Position numbers and translations under genes: made by a program. The notes beneath the pieces were generated by a model. That model saw nothing but the letters and a program-made list of their open reading frames with translations. It ran no database searches and had not been told where the DNA came from. A stretch of 21,318 nt of DNA from a virus, in the IMG/VR virus record IMGVR_UViG_3300026473_000049, positions 1 through 21,318 of that record, one strand, 5' to 3'. Shown here one piece after another: positions 1 through 19,225 of this stretch; position 1 is the first letter of the stretch; each line of letters opens with the position of its first letter.

Positions 1-3000
1 CGCCGGTGACATCAAATGTTGTTCCTTGTATCGAAACTCCGCCGTAATCAATACCAGTCATTAGTTGATTTAATTCTTTACCCAGCATGCCGCTGCTTGG
101 AGAATAATACTTTTCAATCCTGTTGATACTGTCTAATAACTCGTCATTTTTTTGATATGTTATAATAATAACATCATCTTTTAAAGGAGCTTCTATAAAT
201 TTTATTTTACCCTTTAATAAACTGTAGTCATCGACGCTTGAAATATATAAACTAATTTCATATTCGTTGGTTAACACTACTTGACTGTTTTTAGTTATTG
301 TTATCTTACTTTTATCTCTTGTTGGTGCGTAATTTAATTCAAATACTGCGGTAAGTCCGCTGGCAACGAATGTTTGAGAATAAGATAAGTTTGTGTATAA
401 TCCTTGTTTAGCTAATCTATCAAACTTAATTTTTAAATCAAAAGTTCTTGTTTTAGTGTCGCCTAAGATCGGAACAGCTCTTGCTGTTCTATAACCTGTA
501 GCATTACCACCAACTAATGTAACAGTTGGGGCTTTTGTATATCCTGAACCAACTGTTAAAACTTGGATTCCAGACACTTTGCCGTTTGATACAAATGCTT
601 GAGCTGTAGCACCAGTGCCATCACCGTCAATTACTACTCGAGGTGCTTGAGTATATTGCTCGCCTACGTCTGCTATCTGTATATCAACAATTGAAAAGCC
701 TAAATTATCTTTCCACCATTTCCATGGATAGGAATTAATACTGTTACTATTTTTGTTAACTGGAAGAATTCGACCTTCTAATTCAACATACTCTGCAGGA
801 AGGTCAAAGTCTGTAGCAGCCATACCCAATGGCTCGACACTGTCATATCGGCTGATGTATTGTCTTACTGTCGATCTATATGGTTTGACTTCGTCAATGT
901 AATCTTGGAAATTCTTTAAATTATCATTTTTATAATTTAATCTTTGTTCTAAATTACCTATATTATGAATAGCTGTTAAGAAGCTGGTCTTAAAAGCCCA
1001 GTCAACATATAACTGTTCTGAAAATACATATCTGATACAGGTAAAAAATAACTTGTTCCATTCGACAGCATAGTTATTAATAAAGATATCTTCTTTGATT
1101 GCTTTAAGAATATTTCTTAATTCTTTTGCATTTTCAATATCATAAAAACCAGTGTCGAAGCTAGAAACATTATCATAACCAATACCTGCTGTATTAATAT
1201 TGTATAACGTGTCTTTTAATTTAATAGTTCCCTGTTTTCTTGCAACCATTGTAAATCTATCTAAGAATGTTCCGGCAGCATCAGATGTCTTTTCAAACCA
1301 TGCCCATCCACCGCTAGAATATTCTTTAACTTGAATTACATCACCAATACTTACATCAATGGTCGATTCTTCGAAAACTTGAGAAATTTCTTTTACTAAT
1401 CGAGTTCCTACACCGTATCCATCTTTATACCAGTCAATATATTCCCAGTATCTAGTGGTGTCATAGGCCTGAGATGCACTTCTAAAGAATGTTTTTCTTA
1501 TGTCGTCCCAAGCATAAATGCTCCAAAATCCGTTAGCTGTTGAATCTGAATTTACCAACACAGAAAATTGTCTTACACTAACTGTTGCAGAATTGTATCT
1601 CTTGCCTCTCGAATCAATTCTTACTGAAGAAATTCTTCCTTGATTATCTATAATAGCCACAGCTTTGGCACCTTTACCGTCACCATCGATTACTATAGGA
1701 GGAGAAACTTTATATCCAGCACCCGGATCTAATATATCGATCGTATCAACTTCACCGTCGACAATGTTTACTTGCAATTTTGCTTGTTTGGTTCTTACTG
1801 TTCCAACAACGGCCAAATCGTTATAAGTGTCTACAGTTACATCATAAAGATTTAGTGCTTCGCTTGGTGCTAGATCGACCAAGTTTAAATTTTCATAATT
1901 AATTGTATCAGCAAATGGCTCTTTATATAAAATTGCATTGACATTATCGACAACGATTTTTAATGCAGCCAACCTATTAACAAACATACTTTGTCTAGGT
2001 CTAAATGCTATTCCATATTTTTGTTTAATTGGTAGGTCTGGATCTGGCACACGATTACCTGCTTGATCGTAGCCTATTAAACTATCGAACCACTTTGTTT
2101 CTAATTTCGTCGAAGGCAAGCTATCTGCAATACCGTCCGACAATAGTTGATATTCATTATGAATAGGGTTCAGTTCGGAATAATCTTTTCTAAATTGTAA
2201 ATTAATTACCGCAGTAGCTGAAGTCATCACTGACGGTAAATTATAAGTTAATAGTTTATCTTTATCAATTAAAGAGACAAAAGCCACACCAGATGCTGTG
2301 GGATTTGAAATTAGATTGGCCACTGCGGCTGCAGAAATGTTTCTGCCCGGCATGTTCTCCGGAACTACAACTTTATTTTTTACCCAATAATAATACAACG
2401 TATCTGTAGGCTCACCTAGAGAATTAAACAGATATTTTACAGAATATACATCGTTGTTTGGATATAACGGTTGTCCGGAAATCCCTTCAGCTAATCCTTC
2501 ATTAGTATCTGCCAGGGCCGACCATTCGTTGGGTAATAATGGTGTTTCAACCCATTCGTATACGTCAATGGTTGATCCTTCTGCTAATCCGTTCCAGTTA
2601 CCTAGTCTATATGCTAGGTCGCCTTGCTCATAATTTTTCCACTTAGCTGTAGATAGGTTCCACCATAACAATCCAACATTTTTTGTGGTCCATGCAGTTT
2701 CAGGATCTACAACCTGTTCCTCTGTTCCTATACTATAGACAGCAGGATCAAAAGAAGTTTTAAATTTAATTTCTGATTCTGCAGAATTTAAAATTTTTAA
2801 TTTTGCATGATCGATGTAATCAAGCTCTTGTATTTTATAATTCTTTTCAGTATCAAACATCGAAATACTCTTGATCATAGAAATATCTATAGTTGCTGTT
2901 TCTTGACCAATGATGTTTAAAGAATTAACTGATGCGTCTTTCTTGAATAGTCTAACATTTCCTGTTTTCAACCCGGTAGTTGTATTACGATAGTCAGGAG

Positions 3001-6000
3001 ATCCTACTACTATTGCAGATGCGCTAACATCAACACTGTAACCAAAACTTTCAAAAGGTGTAAAATCTGTGTCTAATTTTTCTGCTAAGAAATAAATGCT
3101 GTCTTTGATTTCAAATACATAAGCAGCACCACTATAACCTTGGCTTTCGATAAACTTAGTTCTGCCTTTGTCAAAGATAGTTCCAACAGTCATGTCTAAT
3201 CTTGTAGGAATAATAAACGGAGAATTTTTAGCTCCTACAACAATTTTTTCTGTGTTAGCACTTATCTGAACATTTTGACCAAAGTATTCGTTAGGATATT
3301 GTTCATAACTTTCAAGTTTTTGTTTTAAACGATATTCAACAGGAGCATATCCGTCTGTTCTAAATACATATACGCTACCTTGATTTTGTAAATTAATATC
3401 CGCTAGCGGACTAGAAATAACAAGTGTTGATCCGCTGTAATCTAAATCTAAACTCCATCCAAACTGATCGCCCGAACTAATCAATGATCCAGAATCTATA
3501 TCATTTAGATTAGCCATAGAACCGTTATTGATAGTTTGTTTTAACTGATACAGATCATTACTATTTCTTTGATAGATGTAAACTTTTCCAGATGATTCTG
3601 AAGAGCTGTCACCGACGTTTTCCCAAGGTAAGCGACCAGGCTCTTCGTTATAACTTCTGGTTGTAGAATCACCGATCTCGCCAATTCGCTGTGTTAATTT
3701 ATGATATATGTTATCGTATTTGACCACGTCGCCTTCGATGTATTCGATGTCTGGTCTCCATATACCTCTGTAGTTGGCAAAATATTGTCCGTCGCTGTTA
3801 GGAGATCCTATAGCTAATATACTACCATCTCTGCTCATGGCTAAACTGAAACCAAACTCGTCGCCTTGTTTTACCAGCTCAGCTAATTGTGTTTCGCTGA
3901 CAAGACCTAGTGCTAATGTTGATCCGTCATCGTCTAGTGCAATGTTTTGTGGCAATGAGCATTGGGTCGAAACAGGATCGATTCTAGTCCAACTTAACGA
4001 ATCAACACTTATGGTGCTGCCGTCGCCGAATGTATCTGTGTTAGCTTGCCATAGTCCGCCATTATACCATACTATAGAACCTCTTGGATAGTATGCAGCT
4101 GGACTTGAATTGTATATGCCTTTATAATTTTCGTTTTCTAGGTGTTTCCATTCACCTGACTCGTAAACATACAGATAAACTCTGCCGCGTTTATCTAATG
4201 CTCCTGTAGCAGAAACTGCTAGGTAATATTTAGATCCGCTCTGCCCTACACAAACGTCGGCTCCAAAATTTTCTGCATTAGCAGGTCTTGGGCTTACAAA
4301 TGATTCTGAAATCGTCCATTGTTGATTTACATATTCATAAATGGAGATCATTCCTTGTGCAGCTGATCCAAAACCGGATCCAACAGGAGTTGCTGGAATA
4401 TTAACAGCTATGGTCCAATCCGATGTGTCAAAATCTGCGGTGCTGCCGTCTGCTCTAACGTCTTGGACAGCTTTCCATAATTTACCTTGATACAATACAA
4501 CATCGTCAACAAGATAATTTTTAGTATTATCAAATTCGCCAACATAATCGCTAGGAACATTATTAGCGGATGGACTTGCAACAATTAAAAATCTGCTATC
4601 AGGAGTGATAGCCATTTTAGCTCCGAACGATCCTCTAACACTGTTTTCAATACCAGACGGTGGTGCAACAATTTGTTTGAGAACTAGCCCAGTAGTCCCC
4701 TCAACGTAACACATCACGTAACCAGAGCCCGGTATACTTGAGATGACTTGTTTTAAATTATCGTCGTATAAAACCTTAGTTCCTGCATACAATGGAGTTG
4801 TAATTCCATACTCAGATATAGATAAATCAGTATATTGATTTTTCTTATTAATAACTTCCCAAAGGTCGCTGCCGTTGTTATCAATCCAAAGTTTAGAATT
4901 GTCTTTTAACAATGCCATTGACCCTGGATTAATATCTTCATAAGATTTAAATCTTGACTCAGTTAAAATATAAATCGGTGTTATAGAGCTGATGTCATAT
5001 TCTGGGTCTTGAGCATCTTCAGCAACTGTAACTGTGACTGTTCTTGTATCAATTTCTGTGATTTTAAAAAACCCGGTTAAGTTAATAACATCTTTGATAC
5101 CGATATAATCACCTACTACAAAATTATGAGATCTAGATAATGTGATGGTTACAGCAGTTCCTGTCTTGATTATTCCCTCGATAGTTAATAAAGGACTTTG
5201 ATTAAATCGTAGAACTTGCCACTCGGGGCCATCAAATGTTACCCATATATGGCAATTATCAAACATCTCTTCGATGTTTAAATCAGATAGGTTTTCTCTA
5301 GATTTAATAATGTAATCAACTGTTAGATTATTAACATACCCAGCAGTTTTAATTGGCTTAGTTTCAAAAGAAACAGGATTGATATTAGTAGTGTAAGGAA
5401 TAGGCTCGATTGTAAAATCGGCTTTTACTATTCGATAATTTTGATCTGTTTCAACTGACGGTTGAAATTCTACGAACAATAGAGGCTGCGGATTTAATTC
5501 AAAATTTTGTTTTAGAACAGTGAATTCTACTTCCGATACTTGGTCAACACCGCCAAGTCTACCTAATCGGAAAGCCCATTCTTCGTTTAAATCAATACTA
5601 GTATCAGCAGTTCTACTTAATTTGTCAAATACTTTTGTAACAGAATTTATAGTTCCCTTTTCTCTAATAAATCCTTGATATAGTTGGAATTGTGTTACAG
5701 GATCTTCTGCTAGATTTTGCAAATATTCTCTTTGTTGATATCCAACAGTGTGTCTTGCCAATGCACGTTGAGACTCTCCGATTCCTTGAGAATCAACATT
5801 GTAGTAATCGTAAATCTGATTTATTTTAAAATCAAAATTAGGAATGAGTTGTTTTTCTGGTGTGGAATCTAATTTAGTCCACCTAGTTTCATCAAACAAT
5901 TCTGTGCCGTTTTGATTTTGTAAACTGGTCCAGTTATAAGATCTATATGATACAATATCCCCTAGCTTATAATCAGTCCAAGGCATCCAAGGATCTATGT

Positions 6001-9000
6001 TTACATTATCAAACAAGAATCCAGGGCTGGTGTAATCTCCGTCCCAGTCAATTGTTCTATATCCCTGAGTTTTAATTCTCTCTTGTCGATAACCAGTAGT
6101 CTTATCGTAAATTACATCATTGAAAACTGTTTTATCTGTGAATACCGCAACGTGCTCTTTTAGAACGTAGTATAATTTCAAGTAATAGATACCATCTGTA
6201 GTATTTGTAGTTTCTATTGTTAACGATTGAAACTCTCTGTTAACGTTGATAAAGGCAGGTATCAAAGGTTTTCCGTCAACCTTTAAAACATTGTAGTCGT
6301 AAAAACTGTCTAATAGACTATCTGAAACTCCAACTGGTGTGCTAATATAAAGTTTATTCGCAGCAGGGCTAAGGGTCAGCAATGATCCAATCATCCAGTT
6401 TTGTTTTGTCCAGAATAGGAATTCTTTGGCAGCAGTTGACCAATCTTCATTGGCCTGTATTTCTGGATTGTAATTGTCGAACTTAAATCCTACTGATTTT
6501 AAATATTGCTCATAGCCTAAAAGAAAATCTACTACAGATTGAATTGTAGACAATCTAGTTCCGTAGCTAAGTTTTTGAACTCTTAATGTGTTGAAATTTC
6601 TTCTTCTAAATGCTTCAACGCCGCCGGTTTGCGGTATACCTGTTAACTTAGACCATAGAGAAGAATCAAATTCGTCTGTAGAAGTATGTGTTCTTAAAGC
6701 TCTAAAATAAACATTCTGATATCTAACTAACTGACCGTTATTATATAATTTGTCAGCTTCCCATTCTAAGAATCTTTCGCTAACTCCGCCTACCGACATC
6801 AACGGATCTCGTTGGTTAGGAACCGCAGCATAATAGTTAAAATACGGCAACACATCATCGTAACCGTTAATCGTCCAGCCGCCTTCTGTCTTTTCTAAAA
6901 TTACACCGCTGTATGTTATACTTGAAATAGGTGTGCTAACATTAAAAATAATATCATAGTTCTCCGCTGGAACGAAAACTGTGCTGCTAGAACTGCTTGG
7001 ACTCTTAGAATCTAACAAATACTTTTGTTGAGCTTTGTCAACAAATCCAGATAATCTCGATGACAATCTTACATCAAGATTATTGATCATCTCAACGATC
7101 GAATCAGTATCTAATCCTTTGGATTTTACATATGCAATTAGATATTGTATCAAACCGCTGTTTATAGCGTCATTTGATAAATCGATTGTATCAGTTAATT
7201 TAGAAAATAACTTAGTAGATGCGTTAACAGTTTGATCTAATTTATTGGTTATTGTTTTTGATGTGTCTAATTGAGTAGTAATATACTCAAAAGGTTTCAT
7301 CAAACACATTGCCATAACAATAGAGAATGGCCATTCTGAGCTTGATCTCCAGGCGTATTCGACAGGAGCAACATCTCCTAATTTAAACGGACCTCTATTA
7401 TTAACTAAGGTAAAGTTACCAGCTAGTCCTGATTCAAGAGGACTTAGTAATTTGCCATCCTCATCTGTTGGGATATGCCCCATAATTGTAGGACGCTTAT
7501 ATCGATCGTATGTTCCGGCTCTAGGACCTTGACGAATTATACCATCTCGCAAATCTTCCCATAATAGCAAATTGTTTTTTGTGTAAGGAGCCGGACCGTA
7601 TTGATCTTCCCACCATGTTGGTTTTTCGCTGAATCCTAACATTTCCCAAGGACAGCGATGTGGTCTATCTGTATCGTAGAACCATTGATATACTCCTCTC
7701 CAGAATCCAGGAAGATTTTGCAATCCTGTTGGATCGGTCATATTAGAGTAAGTGTAAGTGAAAGAATTTTGGCTATCAAAATAATCATTATTGATATAAT
7801 CGATGCTGGTATTCATTATCCACTTCAAGAAATTTTGAGAAATAATTTCATCTAGCTGAGGTTTTTTGTATAAACCATAACCGTTATATCCTCCAACTAT
7901 TGTATCGATATCAAACACTGAAGGATCGTATTGTGTTTTAATATTGTTATAAATTCGATACTCTAGTTCTAATAATAGATCGTCTCTATAATCTCCAAAT
8001 GTAGCAGTGATGCTACCATCGTGTCCTTGGATAACATATCTTGGTTCTTGATATGTGTCGTCAAGAAACTTCATAGGAGTGTATTTTTTATACAGTCCCA
8101 TTGCTGTTGGAGTAGGGGGAATATAACATCCAGAAGTTGTTACATATTCTCTAACTTCAATCACACTTCCGATTTGTAAATTAACATTTAATTTTAAAAA
8201 TCCGAATGTAGAATCAAATTCATAATCTCGTGAGTTTAATAATTGTTGATTATTAATATAAACATAAACCGCACGTCTGCTTAATTCTGTTAAATTAAAC
8301 TTTTCCGATAAACTAAAAGTTTTGATTCCCTCGTCTTCAACTACATATCTAATTAAATTGTAAGCACCGCTACCGATCATATCTGAATCAGCGAACGGAC
8401 TTGTTATACTTTTAACTCTTCCGAGATCCGATACAATATCGTCAACAAAATTAGCGATGTTGTTATTGAAATCTATTTCTGTAGCTTTTTGTAAAAAATT
8501 ATTCTTAAATGTTGTGTAAGATTTATTAGCATATTGTAACGCTTTTATAATGTTGTTGGTCTTATCACATAACAGACTAATAGAAATCGGTGCTATTCCG
8601 GAATGTTTTAAAAATCTCTTTCCATAAGATCTATGATCAAACAAATCTCTTAAATTAGATGCTCCGGGAATAACTCCGGAAAAGTCGTCATCGAACTCGA
8701 TAGACGTAACTACATGATCAATAGCTTGACCTAGTGTAAATTCAGTTAAATCGTTGTTGAAAGGATTTTTTTCTAGGCCGGCAGGAATTTCATAATATCC
8801 TTGATCGGGCTCAACATCTGTGATAATCTTAACAGATACCACATCCCTTTCGCTGAATGTATGATCAAAGGTAAATGTATCACCTTGTCTTGTATAAGTG
8901 CCTGTATACTGATTTCCGTTTATATAAAAACGAATGATCGGATCTGATACTAAATCAGTCCAATATATTGTTTTAAAAGTTAATGTAGATGTTGCTTCTG

Positions 9001-11140
9001 AAACAATTTGACTGTCAACGATTGGTTGAACAAAAGTATTAGCTAATTTTATCCAAGCATTTTCATAAACTGAATTTTGAGAAAATTCATAGAATCCAGT
9101 TGAAATCTTTTTACTATGTCTTGTTTGATCAACGGTATAATAAAAAATATCAGAGTCCCAATCCCAATTGAATAGGATATCTCCGACATTGTCGATTTTT
9201 TGATAACTTAAAACGAATCCTAATTCTTTATCAACTAATGCTGTATTTCCTACTTTATAGGACATTAGTTTAGTTCCGTTAAAAGAACTTACCGGATATG
9301 TATCTGGGTCGGAAAAACTAACACCGTTTTCATCAAATACATCAAACAGTGGTGCTTGGTTTACTGAAGTTTTTTCTTGACTCTTTATCCATGCTGTTCC
9401 GTTATAATGAAACATCGAGCCTGCATTATTATTTCCTCGACGAATTAATACACATTCTCCGATGGTTGACAGCGAATCAACTTCTTCTTTTAAACTAATT
9501 TGTCTGCGGTTGTTATGAGTTATAAATGTAACTCTATAAATTTTATTATTAGCTAGAGCATCAGTATCAGCTATTACTAAAACTCTTGCACCTTCAAAAA
9601 CAAATTCACCATCGATGTTGTAACCTGTGCTGCCTTCAATTTTGCTAAAGATGTCATCAGTAAAATCATCAATATAATCAACTGTGGCTTTTGCGATATA
9701 TCCATGATTGAATAATTTTATGTTAGGCAAAAACTCAATAATTGGTCTTTTTGCTCTCGATGCCTCTGGTGAGTCAAAATCCTGCCCTCTGAATTTATAA
9801 GAATATTCTAATACACTTCTATGGAACCAGCGGTTGTAACGGCTCCACGGATTGATATCTTTACTATCTTTAGAAATAGTGATATAATCTTTGGTGCCAG
9901 GATATGCGCTGGCATCGTCGAATGGTTGTGTGTCGAATCCTTCGTTGTCGAATAACACTTCAGGAAGATCTGTTGACAGAACAGGAACTACTAAATCGGA
10001 GAATTTAGTCAACGTGATTTTATTTCCAACGCCTTCAACTAGCCATGAATCAGAAGAATATTTTTCTGGGGTAACATTTCCCATAAATTCTACAACTAAA
10101 CCGTTGGTAAATTTCACTCCATTGCTGCTTTGATAGTTTGTTTTTCCTAAAATTTCTTTGTCAATGTTGATCTTAGTATTAGATTCGATGTCAGCGATGA
10201 CAAATCGTCCAAACTTGTCTGGGCTTGTTACACTTTGATAATATAAAATATCAGGAGCATCATATGGAACAGTGAAAGTCACAGTTCCGTTTTCGATTTT
10301 ATTATTTGTAACTCCTTGATTGTAATCTAAAGAAGTTGCCTGGCTGGAAACAATTTCAACAAATTCCCAGTCTTGACTGTTAATATCAATACTGCTTCCG
10401 TCATTAGCTAATACTTCAACTTTAGCTTTCCATAGTTTATTATCGTAAACAACTACCGAACCAGCAAAATAAGTTCTATTAGGATCGTAGGTTAATGAAC
10501 CAGTATCATAGCTTGATCTGATAGCAAATCCATCATTAGGAAGATTTACCACAAATTTATAAGTTTGCCCTCTATATAAAGTTAAGGAAGGGTTGTTTGT
10601 ATATCCATCCGGTGTGAATATAAAACTGTTTACAGAACTTTTAACTTTATAGGTGCTGACGATCGACGCCGACTGTCCATATACCTGCACAGATGGAGGT
10701 CCTTCTGGTGCCCAGAAATATTCTCTATAGTTTACAAACTTGTCCCAGTCAATCGGTGGGTTCCAAGTATAGTGCTCTTGACTGGTAAAGAGATCGTCTC
10801 GATCTTCATTATTACCAAAAAACTTTAATTGATTTTTAAAATCAAGGTAGTCATAATAATCTAATATTTTTTGATCTTTACTATAAACTACTCCAGGCTC
10901 TAATTGATATCTGCTACGTAATGTATTGTCTGTGTCAAGATAAACGTCTTTTCCGTTGAAAGTTTTTCCGTATCGACGACCAATATAACCTACAGTTTTT
11001 TCTAACACTCCCGGTTGAACCAAAGGATCTAATACGCCCGATAAAAATTTATCGTTAGTAGGAGTTCTAAAGACTGCCGGTAATAGGTCTACAGTTTTTC
11101 TAACAGGTAGTCCGCTTTTTGGAAATTTTTTATCTGCCAT
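1..11140 (-). CDS. Giant virion structural protein with FG-GAP propeller, 3' end outside window
   Basis: The ORF begins at ATG 11138-11140, one base after the gp6 stop. It reads leftward to base 1, at least 3713 codons; I met no in-frame stop in the stretches translated by hand, which cover most of it. The N-terminus (MADKKFPKSGLPVRK, then LLPAVFRTPTNDKFLSG) resembles, from memory, large structural proteins of marine T4-like phages. Visible parts: residues 1-215 N-terminal region; aromatic modules near 218-262, 1460-1498, 1718-1758, 2203-2247, 2350-2388, 2461-2510 and 2834-2866; a stretch near 1030 (VIQGHDGSITATFGDYRDD); a poly-Ser linker near 1378; an FG-GAP propeller at about 2160-2733; and Gly/Tyr beta repeats near 3130-3185 and 3483-3550. 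No signal peptide or membrane segment was seen. T4 has gene 7 and the fibre genes at this place in the operon. The likely role, by inference, is a baseplate-attached fibre or adhesin that binds the host surface. The frame is certain; the exact role is not. Confidence 0.93.
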   Translation of the reverse strand, partial: MADKKFPKSGLPVRKTVDLLPAVFRTPTNDKFLSGVLDPLVQPGVLEKTVGYIGRRYGKTFNGKDVYLDTDNTLRSRYQLEPGVVYSKDQKILDYYDYLDFKNQLKFFGNNEDRDDLFTSQEHYTWNPPIDWDKFVNYREYFWAPEGPPSVQVYGQSASIVSTYKVKSSVNSFIFTPDGYTNNPSLTLYRGQTYKFVVNLPNDGFAIRSSYDTGSLTYDPNRTYFAGSVVVYDNKLWKAKVEVLANDGSSIDINSQDWEFVEIVSSQATSLDYNQGVTNNKIENGTVTFTVPYDAPDILYYQSVTSPDKFGRFVIADIESNTKINIDKEILGKTNYQSSNGVKFTNGLVVEFMGNVTPEKYSSDSWLVEGVGNKITLTKFSDLVVPVLSTDLPEVLFDNEGFDTQPFDDASAYPGTKDYITISKDSKDINPWSRYNRWFHRSVLEYSYKFRGQDFDSPEASRAKRPIIEFLPNIKLFNHGYIAKATVDYIDDFTDDIFSKIEGSTGYNIDGEFVFEGARVLVIADTDALANNKIYRVTFITHNNRRQISLKEEVDSLSTIGECVLIRRGNNNAGSMFHYNGTAWIKSQEKTSVNQAPLFDVFDENGVSFSDPDTYPVSSFNGTKLMSYKVGNTALVDKELGFVLSYQKIDNVGDILFNWDWDSDIFYYTVDQTRHSKKISTGFYEFSQNSVYENAWIKLANTFVQPIVDSQIVSEATSTLTFKTIYWTDLVSDPIIRFYINGNQYTGTYTRQGDTFTFDHTFSERDVVSVKIITDVEPDQGYYEIPAGLEKNPFNNDLTEFTLGQAIDHVVTSIEFDDDFSGVIPGASNLRDLFDHRSYGKRFLKHSGIAPISISLLCDKTNNIIKALQYANKSYTTFKNNFLQKATEIDFNNNIANFVDDIVSDLGRVKSITSPFADSDMIGSGAYNLIRYVVEDEGIKTFSLSEKFNLTELSRRAVYVYINNQQLLNSRDYEFDSTFGFLKLNVNLQIGSVIEVREYVTTSGCYIPPTPTAMGLYKKYTPMKFLDDTYQEPRYVIQGHDGSITATFGDYRDDLLLELEYRIYNNIKTQYDPSVFDIDTIVGGYNGYGLYKKPQLDEIISQNFLKWIMNTSIDYINNDYFDSQNSFTYTYSNMTDPTGLQNLPGFWRGVYQWFYDTDRPHRCPWEMLGFSEKPTWWEDQYGPAPYTKNNLLLWEDLRDGIIRQGPRAGTYDRYKRPTIMGHIPTDEDGKLLSPLESGLAGNFTLVNNRGPFKLGDVAPVEYAWRSSSEWPFSIVMAMCLMKPFEYITTQLDTSKTITNKLDQTVNASTKLFSKLTDTIDLSNDAINSGLIQYLIAYVKSKGLDTDSIVEMINNLDVRLSSRLSGFVDKAQQKYLLDSKSPSSSSSTVFVPAENYDIIFNVSTPISSITYSGVILEKTEGGWTINGYDDVLPYFNYYAAVPNQRDPLMSVGGVSERFLEWEADKLYNNGQLVRYQNVYFRALRTHTSTDEFDSSLWSKLTGIPQTGGVEAFRRRNFNTLRVQKLSYGTRLSTIQSVVDFLLGYEQYLKSVGFKFDNYNPEIQANEDWSTAAKEFLFWTKQNWMIGSLLTLSPAANKLYISTPVGVSDSLLDSFYDYNVLKVDGKPLIPAFINVNREFQSLTIETTNTTDGIYYLKLYYVLKEHVAVFTDKTVFNDVIYDKTTGYRQERIKTQGYRTIDWDGDYTSPGFLFDNVNIDPWMPWTDYKLGDIVSYRSYNWTSLQNQNGTELFDETRWTKLDSTPEKQLIPNFDFKINQIYDYYNVDSQGIGESQRALARHTVGYQQREYLQNLAEDPVTQFQLYQGFIREKGTINSVTKVFDKLSRTADTSIDLNEEWAFRLGRLGGVDQVSEVEFTVLKQNFELNPQPLLFVEFQPSVETDQNYRIVKADFTIEPIPYTTNINPVSFETKPIKTAGYVNNLTVDYIIKSRENLSDLNIEEMFDNCHIWVTFDGPEWQVLRFNQSPLLTIEGIIKTGTAVTITLSRSHNFVVGDYIGIKDVINLTGFFKITEIDTRTVTVTVAEDAQDPEYDISSITPIYILTESRFKSYEDINPGSMALLKDNSKLWIDNNGSDLWEVINKKNQYTDLSISEYGITTPLYAGTKVLYDDNLKQVISSIPGSGYVMCYVEGTTGLVLKQIVAPPSGIENSVRGSFGAKMAITPDSRFLIVASPSANNVPSDYVGEFDNTKNYLVDDVVLYQGKLWKAVQDVRADGSTADFDTSDWTIAVNIPATPVGSGFGSAAQGMISIYEYVNQQWTISESFVSPRPANAENFGADVCVGQSGSKYYLAVSATGALDKRGRVYLYVYESGEWKHLENENYKGIYNSSPAAYYPRGSIVWYNGGLWQANTDTFGDGSTISVDSLSWTRIDPVSTQCSLPQNIALDDDGSTLALGLVSETQLAELVKQGDEFGFSLAMSRDGSILAIGSPNSDGQYFANYRGIWRPDIEYIEGDVVKYDNIYHKLTQRIGEIGDSTTRSYNEEPGRLPWENVGDSSSESSGKVYIYQRNSNDLYQLKQTINNGSMANLNDIDSGSLISSGDQFGWSLDLDYSGSTLVISSPLADINLQNQGSVYVFRTDGYAPVEYRLKQKLESYEQYPNEYFGQNVQISANTEKIVVGAKNSPFIIPTRLDMTVGTIFDKGRTKFIESQGYSGAAYVFEIKDSIYFLAEKLDTDFTPFESFGYSVDVSASAIVVGSPDYRNTTTGLKTGNVRLFKKDASVNSLNIIGQETATIDISMIKSISMFDTEKNYKIQELDYIDHAKLKILNSAESEIKFKTSFDPAVYSIGTEEQVVDPETAWTTKNVGLLWWNLSTAKWKNYEQGDLAYRLGNWNGLAEGSTIDVYEWVETPLLPNEWSALADTNEGLAEGISGQPLYPNNDVYSVKYLFNSLGEPTDTLYYYWVKNKVVVPENMPGRNISAAAVANLISNPTASGVAFVSLIDKDKLLTYNLPSVMTSATAVINLQFRKDYSELNPIHNEYQLLSDGIADSLPSTKLETKWFDSLIGYDQAGNRVPDPDLPIKQKYGIAFRPRQSMFVNRLAALKIVVDNVNAILYKEPFADTINYENLNLVDLAPSEALNLYDVTVDTYNDLAVVGTVRTKQAKLQVNIVDGEVDTIDILDPGAGYKVSPPIVIDGDGKGAKAVAIIDNQGRISSVRIDSRGKRYNSATVSVRQFSVLVNSDSTANGFWSIYAWDDIRKTFFRSASQAYDTTRYWEYIDWYKDGYGVGTRLVKEISQVFEESTIDVSIGDVIQVKEYSSGGWAWFEKTSDAAGTFLDRFTMVARKQGTIKLKDTLYNINTAGIGYDNVSSFDTGFYDIENAKELRNILKAIKEDIFINNYAVEWNKLFFTCIRYVFSEQLYVDWAFKTSFLTAIHNIGNLEQRLNYKNDNLKNFQDYIDEVKPYRSTVRQYISRYDSVEPLGMAATDFDLPAEYVELEGRILPVNKNSNSINSYPWKWWKDNLGFSIVDIQIADVGEQYTQAPRVVIDGDGTGATAQAFVSNGKVSGIQVLTVGSGYTKAPTVTLVGGNATGYRTARAVPILGDTKTRTFDLKIKFDRLAKQGLYTNLSYSQTFVASGLTAVFELNYAPTRDKSKITITKNSQVVLTNEYEISLYISSVDDYSLLKGKIKFIEAPLKDDVIIITYQKNDELLDSINRIEKYYSPSSGMLGKELNQLMTGIDYGGVSIQGTTFDVTG
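485..693 (-). repeat. Gly/Tyr beta repeat pair 2 in the giant protein
   Basis: Two well-preserved units follow directly: VDIQIADVGEQYTQAPRVVI with DGDGTGATAQAFVSNG, then KVSGIQVLTVGSGYTKAPTV with TLVGGNATGYRTA. The DGDG(K/T)GA turn is identical in style to pair 1, about 1.1 kb away. Confidence 0.6.
1580..1757 (-). repeat. Gly/Tyr beta repeat pair 1 in the giant protein
   Basis: The translation shows DTIDILDPGAGYKVSPPIVI, then DGDGKGAKAVAIIDNQG and a weaker second unit, RISSVRIDSRGKRYNSATVS. The unit is about 36 residues: x-(I/V)-x-(I/V)-x-x-x-G-x-x-Y-x-x-(A/S)-P-x-(V/I) followed by a Gly-rich turn. Such units are common in phage fibre and other extracellular beta proteins. Confidence 0.55.
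2546..2641 (-). repeat. Aromatic module copy 7 (degenerate)
   Basis: Residues 2834-2865 of the giant protein: WKNYEQGDLAYRLGNWNGLA, then IDVYEWVE. It is shorter than the others, and assignment to the same module type is tentative. Confidence 0.3.
3611..3760 (-). repeat. Aromatic module copy 6, inside a propeller blade
   Basis: Residues 2461-2510 of the giant protein: WRPDIEYIEGDVVKYDNIYH, a longer Glu/Arg-rich loop, and LPWENVG. It lies in the same loop position as copy 4, between AIGSP and the closing strand GKVYIYQ. Confidence 0.5.
3977..4093 (-). repeat. Aromatic module copy 5, between propeller blades
   Basis: Residues 2350-2388 of the giant protein: YYPRGSIVWYNGGLWQANTD, then ISVDSLSWTRID. 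It follows the closing strand of the second blade (GRVYLYVYE). Confidence 0.55.
4402..4534 (-). repeat. Aromatic module copy 4, inside propeller blade 1
   Basis: Residues 2203-2247 of the giant protein: FDNTKNYLVDDVVLYQGKLW, then KAVQDVRADGSTADFDTSDW. It lies between the ASP end of the first propeller blade and that blade's closing strand (GMISIYEY), so it is an insertion in a propeller loop. Confidence 0.55.
5867..5989 (-). repeat. Aromatic module copy 3
   Basis: Residues 1718-1758 of the giant protein: WMPWTDYKLGDIVSYRSYNW, then a Gln/Asn-rich loop and LFDETRWTKLD. Same pattern as copy 1. Confidence 0.55.
6644..6763 (-). repeat. Aromatic module copy 2
   Basis: Residues 1460-1499 of the giant protein: WEADKLYNNGQLVRYQNVYF, then RALRTHTSTDEFDSSLWSKL. 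Same pattern as copy 1, complete with both aromatic ends. Confidence 0.55.
10352..10489 (-). repeat. Aromatic module copy 1 (carbohydrate-binding-like)
   Basis: Residues 218-263 of the giant protein: YFAGSVVVYDNKLWKAK, ending in INSQDWEFV. The pattern Y-x-x-G-x-x-V-x-Y-x-x-x-(Y/W)-x-A followed about 20 residues later by W-x-x-(V/L) resembles the chitin-binding CBM5/12 fold. Six further copies follow in the same protein. Confidence 0.55.
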
Positions 11141-11141
11141 A

Positions 11142-14100
11142 TTATGTTGAACTTACAATACTATTAACACTGGCTCTTACCTCTGCTGCTGTAATAGCCG
11201 ATACAATTTCAATATCGTCGACGGTTGCGCCGCTGACAAATATTTCGCTGCTCTTACTTTGAATTTCAAACAAGCTGCCAAATTCTTGGCTAGGCTGTCT
11301 TGGTAATATTACCATGTTACTTACATCAGGTGATACGCTGTTTATAACATAAGTGATCATTTCACTAAGATAAAACTTATCACCGAAATCCCAATTGTTT
11401 ACGTCAAAGAATTCATTAATAGCATTAATAATTCTAACCTTAAGATCGTTGTCGTTTATATTCTTAGTAGGATTTTTAACTACCTTAAATGATGCTTGAA
11501 GTTTTTCGTCTGCTTTAGATCCAAACAAAACTTTATATTCTACCGGATGATAAATGATTTCATCGCTGATGGATTTAATATTATCTAGTTTTAGACCGAA
11601 GCTTATTCTTAAACTATCGCTATTCGGTGGTTCTGGTTTATTAGCAGCGCCAGCCAAATAATTTCTAAACGATGTATTATAACTTCTTGTCAACAAATAA
11701 ACATCAACAATATTGCTGGCGCTTGGGTCTATTCTTCTATTGATGCTGGCGTTGTGAATATACTGAAACTTAATATCAGATCTACCAAAAACTCCTCTAT
11801 AAGAATTTTCTAAATCTAAAGTATTTGTAGTTTTATTAACACGCTTCACACGATTTTCATTTACATCATAGAAATAAATTAACTGACCGTCTTCAAAGTT
11901 GTTGATGTTGATCAATGATTCTTTCTGATATACTAATATTGTATCATTTGAATTATCGATTAATGTTCTAGTCACATATCCGTTGTCATCAACAATCTCT
12001 TGGAAGAAAATGTAACTTAATTGACTGTCTTCTCCCACGACATCTTCAAACGCATCTGGGTTATCGATAGCGCCATCATCGTCGGTATCTTTGAAGGCTA
12101 ATTTAATTTCCTGAATACTTTCATATCCATCGTCAAACTTAATAGTATCTGCGATTTCGAAATCGATATCAGATATCAATGGGGTGATTCTATCTTTAGC
12201 TGTGTTTATTCCTAGTATGCTTACAGTATCTTTAACAACTTTGCCTAGGCGATCATTATAGTCTTTTTCGTTGGCATCGAAATAGAATCTGTTTTGTTGG
12301 ATGCTACCAAATATATAATTCAATCCTCTGATTCTTATATTGTATCTGTCTGCTTCTTTTACAAAAGCGATAATCCAAGAACTATCAAGAGCCGCATTTG
12401 TTGTATCTCCAGATTTACCTAAATTAAAATCACTTAATAAATCTAAGTTTGTAGCTGTGATAATTTTCCATGTTTGTTCTGATACACTATATCGCAAACC
12501 AAAATTTAAATCTTGAGATATTTGATTTACCATTTCAGTTTCAATAGCTGTAGATAAATCATTTACAAACTTTGGAACTACTCTAGTAGCAATCGCATAT
12601 CTGTCTGTTGCTACATCCATTGGAATATTTTCGCTCAAAGTAACAGGGCCTAGACCAGACGGTAATGTTCCTCTACCAGCGTTGGTTCCGTCTCCCACTA
12701 CCTTAACTACTTTGGCCCAAATATATTTTAGCTGGTCCGGGTCGCTAGAATCAGCGGCTACAATTTTGTTTTTCTTAAATGCAAAACCCGTAGGAGGAAC
12801 AAATTTAATTAAAGATCCAGCTGTTACATATTTTAAACTGTTAGTAGCATAAGATCCAACTTTAGATAAAAAAGTTCCGTTCTTAAAATATCCGGTCGAC
12901 TGACTCACATCTGAAGTAATGGTCTTCCATTCAATCGTTTCTCCCGATGTGAACAGAATCTTATCAAATTTTGTAAGATAAAAATTGAATGTATCATCGT
13001 TTGAAAACTGAGGTTCTACTGTTCTTCTAATAAAATTGATTGCATCGATTCTACTAGTATACTTAAAAGTTAAAACTTTTTCTGTTTCTTCTTTATAAAT
13101 GTAGCCGTCGTTCGCATACACATTAACAGAACTGTAGCGTCCGGTAGCATCTATGATGTCAAAATTTCTAGAAATTCCAGAACTGGTTCTATTAACTGAT
13201 TTTACTTTTAAAATATTTTGACTACTGGTCAACGGAGCAAGATTATAATCTTCTCCTGTGATCATTCTATTTTGTGTATAGAAACTAGCAGGAGCATTTG
13301 TTCTAATAGTGTCAATGCCTTCTGAAGGTGCAGATGTAGCCACAGTATATTGTAAAGCTAAGCCGATTGTAAGATTATGCTCTTCTCCTCGTTTGTTGGT
13401 GTAAGGAATAGTGATATTAATTCCTCTCATCTCGTTAGGAGATATAGTATAAGACAAACCGTTGCTTGTTCTATAATATACTCTAAAACTTCCTTGAGGA
13501 AGATTACCATAAATTCCGTCAGCAAACACTAATTCAACTCTGTCTTTGTCTTTGGTAACTACAGAATAAATGTTTCTTATGTTTTGAGAAATACTATTAT
13601 AAACAATATTATTTCCTACTAGATTAGCTACCTGAGTCCATTGGTCGAGTTGAATCCCGCCCGCGCTTAGACCAAACAACCAAACATCATCATTGTTAAT
13701 TCCGGTAGCGTCTACTGCTACAGTTTCGTTAGTAGTTGGAACGTCTATAGAAAAATCTGCAAGTTCTAAACTACCTTGTTTGAACATCATATAAAAACCA
13801 GTGTTTGCGCTTCCTGGTCCAGAACCATCGTTTCTATAAATGAATCCTATTTGATTGCCAGGAACTGGTGGTTCTTCATAGGGAGACTCTGCTCCCTTGA
13901 ATGCTGTTGACACTATTTCAAAAGCCATTCCTCTAGCGGCTACAGTCTTGCTAAAAGAGTAGATAGGAACGTCTGCAGAAATAGTTCTAAATCTATATTG
14001 TTCTGTTTGTATTCCTTGAATTACAGCAGATCCCTGGCTTCGACCAAATTCTGTATTATCTGCCATTGCAGAATTTAACACTGAAATAAATTGTTCTAAC

Positions 14101-14555
14101 CAGTTAGTATTTGTAGGATCATTCCAACTAATAATTTGTTGTGCTAGATTTTTTCCGTTACTATCAAACACTTCCTCTGTTGTAGTAACTGTTGTAAATT
14201 TTAAAAGACCTTGTGCCGAAACATTGCGTTTAGCATTATAACTCAACATCTTCGCTAAACGAATAACACTTTCTTTAGTTTCAGCTAGTTCAATGAAATT
14301 CTCTCTGCTGGCTAAATCTATCCGAAAAGCCAGACTTTGTCCTAGAAATGCAACTGCATCAATGAGAGCCATGTATTCGCTGCTCTCAATATAATCGTTA
14401 AAATCTTCTGGATAATTTTCACGCAGATAGGTAATAATAACTCTGCGTAAGTTTTCAAAATCGTAAGATTTGAAATCAGCATTTTTAAATGTCTGATAGA
14501 TTCTAGTCCAATCTTGATTTAGAATTAAATTATTTTGTCTAGATGTTGTTGTCAT
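11142..14555 (-). CDS. 6: Baseplate wedge protein gp6-like
   Basis: This is the wedge subunit that in T4 dimerises to form the inner ring of the baseplate. The N-terminal 120 residues are typical of the family: LRENYPEDFNDYIESSEYM, then an Ala/Leu/Phe helix, ASRENFIELAETKESVIRLA and MLSYNAKRNVSAQG. The C-terminal 180 residues (LRISFGLKLDNIKSISDEII near 970, then a region with FDVNNWDFGDKFYLSEM) look like the GpJ/gp6 C-terminal fold that contacts neighbouring wedges. At 1137 aa it is much longer than T4 gp6 (about 660 aa); the extra length lies in the middle and is rich in beta-type sequence. It starts at ATG 14553-14555, with AGGA (complement of 14564-14567) 8 nt upstream. It follows gp25 after a 42-nt gap, the only real gap in the operon, and ends one base before the giant gene. 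Confidence 0.93.
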   Translation of the reverse strand: MTTTSRQNNLILNQDWTRIYQTFKNADFKSYDFENLRRVIITYLRENYPEDFNDYIESSEYMALIDAVAFLGQSLAFRIDLASRENFIELAETKESVIRLAKMLSYNAKRNVSAQGLLKFTTVTTTEEVFDSNGKNLAQQIISWNDPTNTNWLEQFISVLNSAMADNTEFGRSQGSAVIQGIQTEQYRFRTISADVPIYSFSKTVAARGMAFEIVSTAFKGAESPYEEPPVPGNQIGFIYRNDGSGPGSANTGFYMMFKQGSLELADFSIDVPTTNETVAVDATGINNDDVWLFGLSAGGIQLDQWTQVANLVGNNIVYNSISQNIRNIYSVVTKDKDRVELVFADGIYGNLPQGSFRVYYRTSNGLSYTISPNEMRGINITIPYTNKRGEEHNLTIGLALQYTVATSAPSEGIDTIRTNAPASFYTQNRMITGEDYNLAPLTSSQNILKVKSVNRTSSGISRNFDIIDATGRYSSVNVYANDGYIYKEETEKVLTFKYTSRIDAINFIRRTVEPQFSNDDTFNFYLTKFDKILFTSGETIEWKTITSDVSQSTGYFKNGTFLSKVGSYATNSLKYVTAGSLIKFVPPTGFAFKKNKIVAADSSDPDQLKYIWAKVVKVVGDGTNAGRGTLPSGLGPVTLSENIPMDVATDRYAIATRVVPKFVNDLSTAIETEMVNQISQDLNFGLRYSVSEQTWKIITATNLDLLSDFNLGKSGDTTNAALDSSWIIAFVKEADRYNIRIRGLNYIFGSIQQNRFYFDANEKDYNDRLGKVVKDTVSILGINTAKDRITPLISDIDFEIADTIKFDDGYESIQEIKLAFKDTDDDGAIDNPDAFEDVVGEDSQLSYIFFQEIVDDNGYVTRTLIDNSNDTILVYQKESLININNFEDGQLIYFYDVNENRVKRVNKTTNTLDLENSYRGVFGRSDIKFQYIHNASINRRIDPSASNIVDVYLLTRSYNTSFRNYLAGAANKPEPPNSDSLRISFGLKLDNIKSISDEIIYHPVEYKVLFGSKADEKLQASFKVVKNPTKNINDNDLKVRIINAINEFFDVNNWDFGDKFYLSEMITYVINSVSPDVSNMVILPRQPSQEFGSLFEIQSKSSEIFVSGATVDDIEIVSAITAAEVRASVNSIVSST

Positions 14556-14597: not shown

Positions 14598-15038
14598 TCA
14601 GTTAATAATACTGTTGTTCTTATCAAAGTTAAATGTCATTCTTTCGTTGATGTTAAATGGAATATAGGTAATATCTGCCTGTATTCTAATACCTTGATCT
14701 GTGCTATCTATCTGTATTTCGTTAACTGAAATTCTCGGGTCGTAGTTTATAATTTCTTCAACATCTTTTGAAATGATATTTTTAACTTCTTCTGTGAAAG
14801 GCTCAAAAAGAATGTCCCAGATCACTGTGCCAAATTCTGGATTTTCTAATTTTTCTCCCTTGCGGATATAGAAGTGATTTATAAGGTCTTGCTTAACAAG
14901 ATCAACATCGAATAATTTATAGTTTCGTTTACTTTCTAAAGAATTGAATCCCTTATAGGCAAAACTGGTGTTGCCTTGTGTTCCTATACTAGCTGTATTA
15001 GTTGCTACAGTTTTTTGATTATAAAGTTTATTTGCCAT
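14598..15038 (-). CDS. 25: Baseplate wedge protein gp25-like
   Basis: This is a small wedge protein of the gp25/GpW family, which forms part of the wedge core and contacts the start of the sheath in contractile tails. Visible family features are FDVDLVKQDLINHFYIRKGE, then ENPEFGTVIWDILFEPFTEE, then a helix ending in the conserved NYDPR motif (the EPR-type turn), followed by beta strands to the C-terminus. At 146 aa it is close to the usual 120-140 aa. It starts at ATG 15036-15038, two bases after the gp5 stop, so translation is probably coupled. In T4 gene 25 lies in a different cluster (with 26, 27, 48, 54); here it sits between genes 5 and 6, an order I associate with marine T4-like phages. 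Confidence 0.95.
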   Translation of the reverse strand: MANKLYNQKTVATNTASIGTQGNTSFAYKGFNSLESKRNYKLFDVDLVKQDLINHFYIRKGEKLENPEFGTVIWDILFEPFTEEVKNIISKDVEEIINYDPRISVNEIQIDSTDQGIRIQADITYIPFNINERMTFNFDKNNSIIN

Positions 15039-15040
15039 GA

Positions 15041-16615
15041 TTATACTTCCCTATCTGTGTTAGAAGGTGTTAATTGTTCTGGTGCTTGGTTTTCGTGCAG
15101 AGGCCAAGGCTCATGCATAGGAACACGTTTCATAATGCTACTAATATTTTCTGAAATGTATCTTTTATCCCATCCTGCATCAACACTTGTCGAAATATTA
15201 TCGTGTGTTGGTATAGGTTCAATTGGCGTGGCCGCAGCAGCGGTAACTGCTGGAAAACTGTTTAAGTCAATTCTAGCGCCACTCTGCGTGATATTCCCGC
15301 CGCTCTTGATATCTGTAGTTCCACTGGCTGTAAATTTGCTGGCAGCGCCTACACGAAGATCAAAATTAGCACCTACTGTGATTTTAGTGTCTCCAACAGC
15401 TACATGCTCGTATACACCGCCTACTGAGATTTTGCCATCTTGGCCGACTAGCACTTCCCAATTTTGTGCCATTTCCATTCTTGTGCGACCACCGATAGCT
15501 TTCATATTGATATTTCGACCAGCTTCTAAATTAATATCTCTGTCAGCTCGAATGTTTAAATCATTTTCTGTGTGAACACTAACACTATCTTTGGCATAGA
15601 TATCTATTTTGCCGTTGCTAGTTAATTCTATCCACGTAGTTCCTCTAGCATTGCCGATATAAATCAAATCTTCAGAATTATGTAAAAGTATCTGATGACC
15701 CGTCCTTGTGCGTAATCTTAAACATTCGCCATAGGGAATTGTAGGATCACCTTTTTCACCGGCTAATACATCTGCATACTCTACCGGTCCTTCTTTAGCA
15801 GATTTTTTTCTTTGATAGCGTTCATCGCCATCGTCCATAACAAATTGTGTTCCACCTAATCGACTAACCGGAACCGTTGTTTGTGTAAGGTCTTCTTGTT
15901 TACCTATTAGAGATTTTTTTGCTCCGGGCCTTTTGTCTAATGGTCCAGGAGTGCTAATACCGTATACTGCACTTGGCGCTTCTCGTCTTGCAGAACTTGT
16001 TACTACGCCTCTAGTGTCGTCTTCTAATAATCCTTGTTCTAAAAATCTATCAGCTATAGGATGAACAACTTTTTTTATTTTGTCTGGATCAATGGTCTGG
16101 GTCTTAGTATTAAGTTTTTTATTGATCTCTGCCACAGGCAGCGGTTGTTTTGTTCCGTATTTTTTCTTATCATCCGAATCCATGTCTACTTCAGTAGACC
16201 CTGCTATTGCAGGCACCATATTATTAATAAACTTTCCAGGAACACAGCCCATCCAATAACCTTGGCTAGGGTCTCCGTTAACAAAAAATACTAAAACGTT
16301 AACACCAATATCAGGCGGAACAAACCACATACCATAACTCTTTTGTGTGTCGTTATATCCATCTATGGTTTTTTTAGAAGCATCGTTCTGCCCCATGAAC
16401 TCAAAAGCAGTATAGCCGAAAAACGGCATTGCACATCGGACCACGTAACTTTGATTGTCGTCACCTACGGTATTGCCCTGCTCTCTTAGTAATGTTACTT
16501 CTAGACTGCCCATAAGACTAGGGTCTAGATGTCCCACGATCCTAGCTAGATAAGGACCATTTTCTAAACTTGCGCCTTCTCTTGCCGAATACGATGATCG
16601 TTTTTCTTGTGCCAT
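15041..16615 (-). CDS. 5: gp5-like baseplate central spike, no lysozyme domain
   Basis: This is the needle protein at the centre of the baseplate, which in T4 forms a trimer and pierces the outer membrane. Residues 20-135 are an OB-fold-like domain (GPYLARIVGHLDP, then YGMWFVPPDIGVNVLVFF and GDPSQGYWMGCVPGKFINN). Residues 138-290 are a charged linker. Residues 295-455 are a VgrG-like beta-helix with short repeats in D-x-N-x-x-A style (IELTSNGKIDIYAKDSVSV, NDLNIRADRDINLEAGRNIN). Near the C-terminus is RVPMHEPWPLHEN, a motif I recall from gp5 of marine T4-like phages. The T4 lysozyme domain between OB fold and helix is absent, so peptidoglycan cleavage must come from another protein. The start ATG overlaps the preceding stop as TAATG. 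Confidence 0.9.
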   Translation of the reverse strand: MAQEKRSSYSAREGASLENGPYLARIVGHLDPSLMGSLEVTLLREQGNTVGDDNQSYVVRCAMPFFGYTAFEFMGQNDASKKTIDGYNDTQKSYGMWFVPPDIGVNVLVFFVNGDPSQGYWMGCVPGKFINNMVPAIAGSTEVDMDSDDKKKYGTKQPLPVAEINKKLNTKTQTIDPDKIKKVVHPIADRFLEQGLLEDDTRGVVTSSARREAPSAVYGISTPGPLDKRPGAKKSLIGKQEDLTQTTVPVSRLGGTQFVMDDGDERYQRKKSAKEGPVEYADVLAGEKGDPTIPYGECLRLRTRTGHQILLHNSEDLIYIGNARGTTWIELTSNGKIDIYAKDSVSVHTENDLNIRADRDINLEAGRNINMKAIGGRTRMEMAQNWEVLVGQDGKISVGGVYEHVAVGDTKITVGANFDLRVGAASKFTASGTTDIKSGGNITQSGARIDLNSFPAVTAAAATPIEPIPTHDNISTSVDAGWDKRYISENISSIMKRVPMHEPWPLHENQAPEQLTPSNTDREV

Positions 16616-18925: not shown

Positions 18926-19225
18926 TTAGACTCCTAGAAACTTTTCTAAATTAGATTTTTTAGGAATATAGATTACAGTCCCAGTTTCAAAATCATAGAT
19001 GGGATCTTTAATTGCATCCATATTGCGTTGAACAAATACCCACCATAATTTAGGATTGCCGTATAAGTCATAGGCTAACAAATCTGGCCTATATCTATAT
19101 TGACTTTCTATAACATATCTAAAATCATCCGGCTCTGCAGGAACCGGTCTAATGTTTAATAGCTCGAGATATAAATTATTTTGTGATGTTATTGCCCAAG
19201 GACTTGATTGAGTATACTGTGCCAT
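18926..19225 (-). CDS. 53: Baseplate wedge protein gp53-like (short form)
   Basis: This 99-aa protein matches the core of gp53, a wedge component that in T4 joins wedges into the baseplate ring. The diagnostic stretch is residues 42-90: YRYRPDLLAYDLYGNPKLWW, then VFVQRNMDAIKDPIYDFETG, then VIYIPKK. The family core includes a LysM-like fold, and the pattern here (Tyr/Trp-rich, ending in I-x-I-P) fits it. T4 gp53 is about twice as long, so this is a compact version; both ends look intact rather than truncated. It starts at ATG 19223-19225, one base after the previous stop, and its own stop lies one base before the GTG of the next gene. In T4 gene 53 also lies next to gene 5, with no 769-aa gene between. 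Confidence 0.92.
   Translation of the reverse strand: MAQYTQSSPWAITSQNNLYLELLNIRPVPAEPDDFRYVIESQYRYRPDLLAYDLYGNPKLWWVFVQRNMDAIKDPIYDFETGTVIYIPKKSNLEKFLGV
18931..18935 (-). promoter_or_regulatory. Ribosome binding site that fixes the GTG start of the 769-aa gene
   Basis: The minus strand carries AGGAG here, 6 nt before GTG 18922-18924. The overlapping ATG at 18924-18926 is followed at once by TGA in its own frame, so GTG is the start. The site lies within the last codons of the gp53-like gene. Confidence 0.7.

Follow-up and report, generated by a model that had tools for sequence, protein, structure and literature searches.

A predicted seven-bladed FG-GAP beta-propeller with CBM5/12-like modules at a fixed site of a giant tail-cluster protein in uncultured jumbo phages

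What is an integrin-like repeat doing inside a giant virion protein of a bacteriophage? The question is raised by IMG/VR record IMGVR_UViG_3300026473_000049, a virus contig of 21,318 bases (the whole stretch analysed, here called the window) and a fragment of an uncultured jumbo-phage genome. A preliminary description, made from the sequence, had placed six FG blades of a seven-bladed, integrin-type FG-GAP propeller at 2942-4660, which on the minus strand corresponds to residues 2161-2733 (573 aa) of a giant protein. Propellers of the FG-GAP type are best known as adhesion heads. We conclude that residues 2120-2749 of this protein form, as modelled, a seven-bladed FG-GAP beta-propeller. Three modules resembling carbohydrate-binding module (CBM) family 5/12, which had gone unmentioned, are inserted within 2942-4660.

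The first question is whether the repeats belong to the FG-GAP family at all. Pfam FG-GAP_2 (PF14312) matches residues 2161-2733 at 81.8 bits (cut-off 23; E = 4e-23) and is matched by all 43 of the 43 relatives. Of the two FG-GAP profiles named in the preliminary description this one held, whereas the integrin alpha-type profile PF01839 stays under its cut-off in the propeller (15.5 versus 22.1 bits); likewise, a regular-expression search of the propeller for the calcium-loop motif D.[DN].[DN]G, as in the strand 1-2 loops of integrins, gave no match. We also used a blade hidden Markov model (HMM) built from relatives only, with all sequences of the window's clade left out. In the whole 3713-aa protein it finds exactly six FG blades, all within 2161-2733 as had been described, with matches starting at residues 2166, 2283, 2424, 2547, 2614 and 2691 (E 1.3e-3 to 3e-12). 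Compared pairwise with hhalign, all six blade profiles prove homologous to one another (E mostly 1e-5 to 3e-14, 0.0026 for the weakest pair), the same blades giving E ≥ 0.037 against control segments, and the final blade HMM matched none of 116 shuffled and reversed sequences of the propeller-bearing slot. With so short a motif, and with a Pfam profile that covers only 49 positions, FG and GAP dipeptides arising by chance, or an unrelated beta-repeat, could be mistaken for a propeller. Mutual blade homology, the empty controls and the independent blade HMM led us to reject this reading; with the strength of the Pfam match and the concordant structural results below, its probability is negligible.

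Does the region also fold as a propeller? An AlphaFold2 model (731 residues, 43-row alignment) reached a mean predicted local distance difference test score (pLDDT) of 80.5 and a predicted template modelling score (pTM) of 0.79, and DSSP assigned to it 28 strands, that is, seven four-stranded blades. Foldseek matches in the PDB were led by integrin alpha heads (best E = 1.2e-12), and the proposal of a seven-bladed, integrin-type FG-GAP propeller is thus upheld by Pfam, AlphaFold2 and Foldseek together. One figure tells against the resemblance: template modelling (TM) scores obtained with integrins lie mostly at 0.2-0.45, a low range for which the inserts, about 180 of the 731 residues, and the further flanking residues are the probable cause. 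Among viral models, giant-virus and phage FG-GAP-like proteins rank first, and stand-alone viral FG-GAP-like propellers (393-415 aa) reach TM 0.67-0.70 when normalised on the target. A separate 393-aa 'hemagglutinin' of the cultured relative Atu_ph07 (A0A2L0UZX4 in BFVD) matches the propeller model with TM 0.70 on the target and is a possible stand-alone counterpart.

From the N-terminal to the C-terminal side, the parts of the propeller region lie as follows, with residues counted along the giant protein.

4664-4783, minus strand: blade 1, the seventh blade, its FG motif lost (residues 2120-2159; four strands with pLDDT >90; aligns with the FG-like blade 1 of relative L179)
4298-4663, minus strand: blade 2, FG, residues 2160-2281, with CBM module 1 separating strands 2 and 3 (blade HMM 2166-2206; AlphaFold2 strands)
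4364-4555, minus strand: CBM5/12-like module 1, residues 2196-2259 (PF02839 at 37.4 bits, cut-off 26.2, in the 573-aa query; E 5e-5 alone)
4142-4297, minus strand: blade 3, FG, residues 2282-2333 (blade HMM 2283-2332)
3968-4141, minus strand: CBM5/12-like module 2, residues 2334-2391, in the strand 4-1 loop between blades 3 and 4 (within-family CBM HMM; no Pfam match alone)
3878-3967, minus strand: conserved blade-like motif SLPQNIALDDDGSTLALG, residues 2392-2421, the seventh-blade candidate of the preliminary description (pLDDT <50; weakly like blade 4, E 1.5e-4)
3530-3877, minus strand: blade 4, FG, residues 2422-2537, with CBM module 3 separating strands 2 and 3 (blade HMM 2424-2533, E 2e-11)
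3596-3763, minus strand: CBM5/12-like module 3, residues 2460-2515 (PF02839 E 0.024 alone, under the cut-off; hhalign to module 2, E 6e-4)
3308-3529, minus strand: blade 5, FG, residues 2538-2611 (PF14312 at 34.6 bits alone, cut-off 23)
3074-3307, minus strand: blade 6, FG, residues 2612-2689 (PF14312 at 27 bits alone)
2894-3073, minus strand: blade 7, FG, residues 2690-2749 (PF14312 at 20.1 bits alone; blade HMM E 1e-7)

The seventh blade had been sought in the wrong place. It had been assigned to IALDDDGSTLALG, which sits in a part of the model with pLDDT <50 (model residues 341-358); the surrounding region (2392-2421) is well conserved in its clade and weakly blade-like. Model confidence and relatives free of CBM modules rule this candidate out. 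The relatives L177-L179 have in the same slot a CBM-free propeller about 470 residues long, and a profile alignment of L177 and L179 with the window (E = 4e-25) is collinear over seven blades, placing their FG-like first blade on residues 2120-2159. The true seventh blade therefore lies just upstream of the six described, and its identity as a blade is one that sequence comparison alone is insufficient to prove.

How are the CBM5/12-like modules arranged on this fold? Over the whole giant protein, PF02839 scores 66.9 bits. Within the propeller the inserts occupy the strand 2-3 loop of blade 2, the position after strand 4 of blade 3 and the strand 2-3 loop of blade 4. Because four-stranded blades have their 2-3 and 4-1 loops on the same side, all three modules fall on one face of the propeller. 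Blade lengths are near-constant among relatives and the insert loops variable: module 2 is missing in L083 and L007 and mostly lost in L075, L050, L063 and L065 have gained a small beta module at the module-2 loop, and blade 3 holds about 150 extra residues in L088 and L090. Further CBM5/12-like modules lie outside the propeller, and the giant proteins of the window's sub-clade have two to four of these:

10349-10486, minus strand: CBM5/12-like module, residues ~219-264
6641-6775, minus strand: CBM5/12-like module, residues ~1456-1500
5843-5977, minus strand: CBM5/12-like module, residues ~1722-1766

The N-terminal region of the giant protein (window ~10151-10648, minus strand) models as cupredoxin-like, with Foldseek matches to AcoP, amicyanin and CueO, and a CBM5/12-like module falls within its sequence range.

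Is the propeller a lasting part of the protein or a passing guest? A first census was seeded on the scaffold flank, with the propeller excluded from the seed; of its 80 nearest loci, 78 have FG blades, and of the two exceptions one breaks off immediately upstream of the flank and the other is a weak match. With PA5oct as seed, a second census collected 58 non-redundant slots; Pfam FG-GAP_2 matches 38 of them and the iterated blade HMM 45, and seven blade matches were counted in 20 slots and more than seven in none. At 133 of the 154 loci surveyed, the tail-cluster protein holds an FG-GAP domain, and the propeller occupies a fixed site of this conserved giant protein. The slot contents of cultured phages had first led us to favour a host-range cassette, in which receptor-binding propellers would be swapped through a permissive slot as hosts change: slot length spans 270 to 2774 aa, Atu_ph07 and Phosso hold about 1200 aa of other sequence there, and RaK2-like phages only a short stretch. 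We dropped this idea when a quick tree of 115 flank sequences of the giant protein, with the slot left out, showed a single change of FG-GAP state, the separating branch being starred at 100. The tree has 95 FG rows, all uncultured, and 20 without FG, which include all seven cultured relatives tested. Nor is the propeller more than somewhat more divergent than the scaffold, with mean pairwise identities of 0.45-0.57 for most blades (two half-blades, 0.40 and 0.71) and 0.46-0.49 for the three CBM modules, against mostly 0.56-0.69 for the scaffold. In the alignment A5 some blades may look conserved since the search used their motifs, a bias from which the scaffold-seeded set is free. The single change argues for an old, vertically inherited propeller, and a swapped cassette now appears improbable.

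Searches beyond these loci returned little. Among 50,697 phage records, tblastn with the propeller as query gave no relative at E ≤ 1e-5, the only match being Vibrio phage nt-1 at E = 0.2, and the propeller query had no match in bacterial genomes. A scaffold query against bacterial genomes returned three contigs of metagenome-assembled genomes (L264-L266), possibly mis-binned phage DNA, which we did not use.

Where in the virion might such a protein sit? The preliminary description had set it next to the baseplate genes, and the loci bear this out: in the phage loci opened, the giant gene immediately follows a gp6 homologue (annotated as gp6; in SCTP-2, judged by position). The genes concerned in the window are these.

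2-11140, minus strand: giant virion protein gene, 3713 aa here, its 3' end lost at the contig end (phrog_10938 virion structural protein, 1062 bits)
11142-14555, minus strand: gp6-like baseplate wedge gene, directly upstream of the giant gene (phrog_10646 baseplate wedge subunit, 945 bits; phrog_219)
14598-15038, minus strand: gp25-like baseplate wedge gene (phrog_43, phrog_261 baseplate wedge subunit)
15041-16615, minus strand: baseplate hub gene, gp5-like (phrog_13211)
18926-19225, minus strand: small baseplate wedge gene, gp53-like (phrog_7145 baseplate wedge subunit)
20403-21248, plus strand: late sigma factor (from the gene reading of the window)

After the late sigma factor, the minus strand thus encodes two virion proteins and the gp53-like, gp5-like, gp25-like and gp6-like proteins, followed by the giant open reading frame (ORF). 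The full-length protein has 4552 aa in L001/L015, a contig identical over the window's giant ORF. Residues 761-1713 match phrog_10938, the middle part shares about 24-32% identity with jumbo phages PA5oct, RaK2, Atu_ph07, SCTP-2, Vibrio 2.275.O and others. For PA5oct and fENko-Kae01, a homologue is flagged as a virion component seen by mass spectrometry. A PDB search with the single sequence of the whole protein gave no matches. At L015:17451-18155 and similar loci, a 234-aa protein (phrog_11259) is encoded between the giant gene and a fibre-like gene and is a candidate partner. The giant ORF is broken by apparent frameshifts in L004/L018, L019, L068, L087 and L091, through assembly error or in reality. 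Short beta repeats (G-x-GY-x3-P-x-V-x-I...) at residues ~3117-3196 and 3483-3545 match many PHROGs; as these include baseplate, hub and connector families, such matches are no evidence of homology over the whole protein.

Directly after gp6 is also the position of T4 gp7. We do not call the giant protein gp7, because profile comparison of its halves with five gp7 proteins (hhalign) gave probabilities below 1% (E 0.14 and 0.53) and, in a fold search with the N-terminal 480 residues, the 50 PDB matches listed were all cupredoxin-like, none supporting gp7. T4 gp7 has an Asp-box-like sequence (SNDKGQTW) before its helical domain, which we note as a lead. T4 gp7 may also contain a propeller of its own, likewise no more than a lead.

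What, then, could the propeller do? The preliminary description had suggested a receptor-binding head or a protein-docking platform on the virion, and the readings weighed here are of both kinds. The reading to which we incline, at a little under an even chance, is a hub displaying one face, on which later CBM modules would contact host glycans while fibres give specificity. The propeller arose, or was lost, a single time as these phages evolved, and CBM5/12-like modules were added later, in the window's sub-clade, to loops on one face of the disc. Fold, number of blades, positions of the inserts and inheritance are findings; location on the virion, outward orientation and glycan contact are what the proposal adds to them. 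The propeller would serve as a rigid tail or baseplate hub, a location that we infer from gene position, and would present the CBM face outward; contacts between the modules and host-surface glycans may then be weak and multivalent, with dedicated tail fibres, probably encoded two and three genes downstream, supplying host specificity. The presence of the CBM5/12-like modules on one face favours glycan contact, and all 44 propellers of the window's sub-clade carry them (1-4 each). The beta-propeller platform of the 80alpha receptor-binding protein is a precedent for this reading (PMC7048315).

Several observations weigh against this proposal. Modules 2 and 3 fall under the Pfam cut-off when tested alone, and in the module at residue 1459, the only one aligned to chitinase A1, Phe aligns with the Trp of AGWEP, where a surface Trp serves chitin binding. 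Of the other FG propellers on the tree, only 1 of 51 has CBM modules (L253, a near outgroup); with 50 lacking them, the basic job of the propeller does not require the modules. With the modules left out, loops on the CBM face vary less than those on the opposite face (entropy 1.52 versus 2.01 bits, p = 0.0035; 68 rows, scaffold-seeded census), a pattern that does not resemble a variable surface for receptor binding. Moreover, the second and third genes downstream of the giant gene code for tail-fibre-like proteins. Stable inheritance, a conserved loop face and separate downstream fibre-like genes favour a structural or docking role, that is, a hub inside the baseplate whose conserved face would hold another virion protein, with the base of a tail fibre or a neighbouring wedge as candidate partners, and whose CBM-like modules would be spacers or protein-binding elements with no glycan activity. 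A single state change on the 115-tip tree with stable inheritance in 95 lineages, the greater conservation of the CBM-face (top) loops over those of the bottom face and the two nearby tail-fibre-like genes all fit this alternative, for which the nozzle propeller of phage SU10 offers a precedent (PMC9509320). Its partner, however, is a candidate only, and CBM modules, modules of cupredoxin-like appearance and small beta modules pile up in the propeller loops, an accumulation that fits an exposed surface better than a packed interface. We regard docking as a serious possibility, nearly as likely as the glycan-contact hub. If the propeller is an adhesin, it marks the host-contact machinery of a widespread group of uncultured jumbo phages; as a docking hub, it would reveal a baseplate of new architecture. 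A more far-reaching form of the glycan-contact reading, which we consider rather doubtful, would have this uncultured clade build its tail tip around an integrin-fold propeller, with the inserted modules acting as a multivalent glycan adhesin distinct from the fibres, in parallel to I-domain integrins.

How new is such an arrangement? FG-GAP domains in viruses are already known from annotation (nt-1, MntV1, giant viruses and BFVD entries), and a 2024 paper still presents an algal virus as possibly the first confirmed viral carrier of them (PMC11467894). In the open literature, a scope outside which most subscription journals lie, we found neither FG-GAP together with baseplate or tail fiber nor a gp6-adjacent giant tail protein with a CBM-bearing FG-GAP propeller fixed in a jumbo-phage clade. 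All seven cultured relatives examined lack the propeller at that site, a possible reason for its having gone unnoticed.

Set beside known systems, the giant proteins of PA5oct, RaK2 and Atu_ph07 are likewise gp6-adjacent and share the scaffold (~24-32% identity), with a slot free of FG blades. S-ShM2 (L098:1-18597) and P-SSM7 (L099:5053-26427) encode still larger proteins, of 6198 and 7124 aa, directly after gp6, in which we found LamG and YHYH modules and no FG-GAP. FG-GAP-type propellers recur in annotated proteins of Vibrio phage nt-1 (VPFG_00309), MntV1, giant viruses and uncultured Caudovirales (BFVD). VPFG_00309, though, is a separate 402-aa gene whose neighbours are not annotated as tail genes and whose match to the propeller reaches E = 0.2 only, and none of the FG-GAP proteins of other viruses was found to belong to a gp6-adjacent giant tail protein. 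Propellers that act as hubs or receptor-binding platforms in phage tails, as proposed here, are described in the parts consulted of two papers: the seven-bladed core of the SU10 nozzle protein carries a fibre-dock loop on its first blade and has nozzle domains inserted between blades 2 and 3 (PMC9509320), and the 80alpha receptor-binding protein has a five-bladed platform suggested to bind the N-acetylglucosamine of wall teichoic acid (PMC7048315). These are different proteins, not described as FG-GAP in those parts, and the likeness is one of description. With the FG-GAP_2 family (PF14312), the window propeller shares the repeated FG...GAP blades and a profile match well over the cut-off; it differs in lying within a giant phage virion protein, in bearing CBM5/12-like modules on one face and in having one blade without the FG motif. 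The integrin alpha head shares the seven-bladed fold, heads the Foldseek PDB matches and also takes up domains in loops of one face, as in some integrins, where an alpha-I domain is inserted in a loop on one face of the propeller. The phage protein departs from it in having no D-x-D/N-x-D/N-G calcium-loop motif and in its sub-threshold PF01839 score, and its propeller carries three small modules where I-domain integrins carry one I domain.

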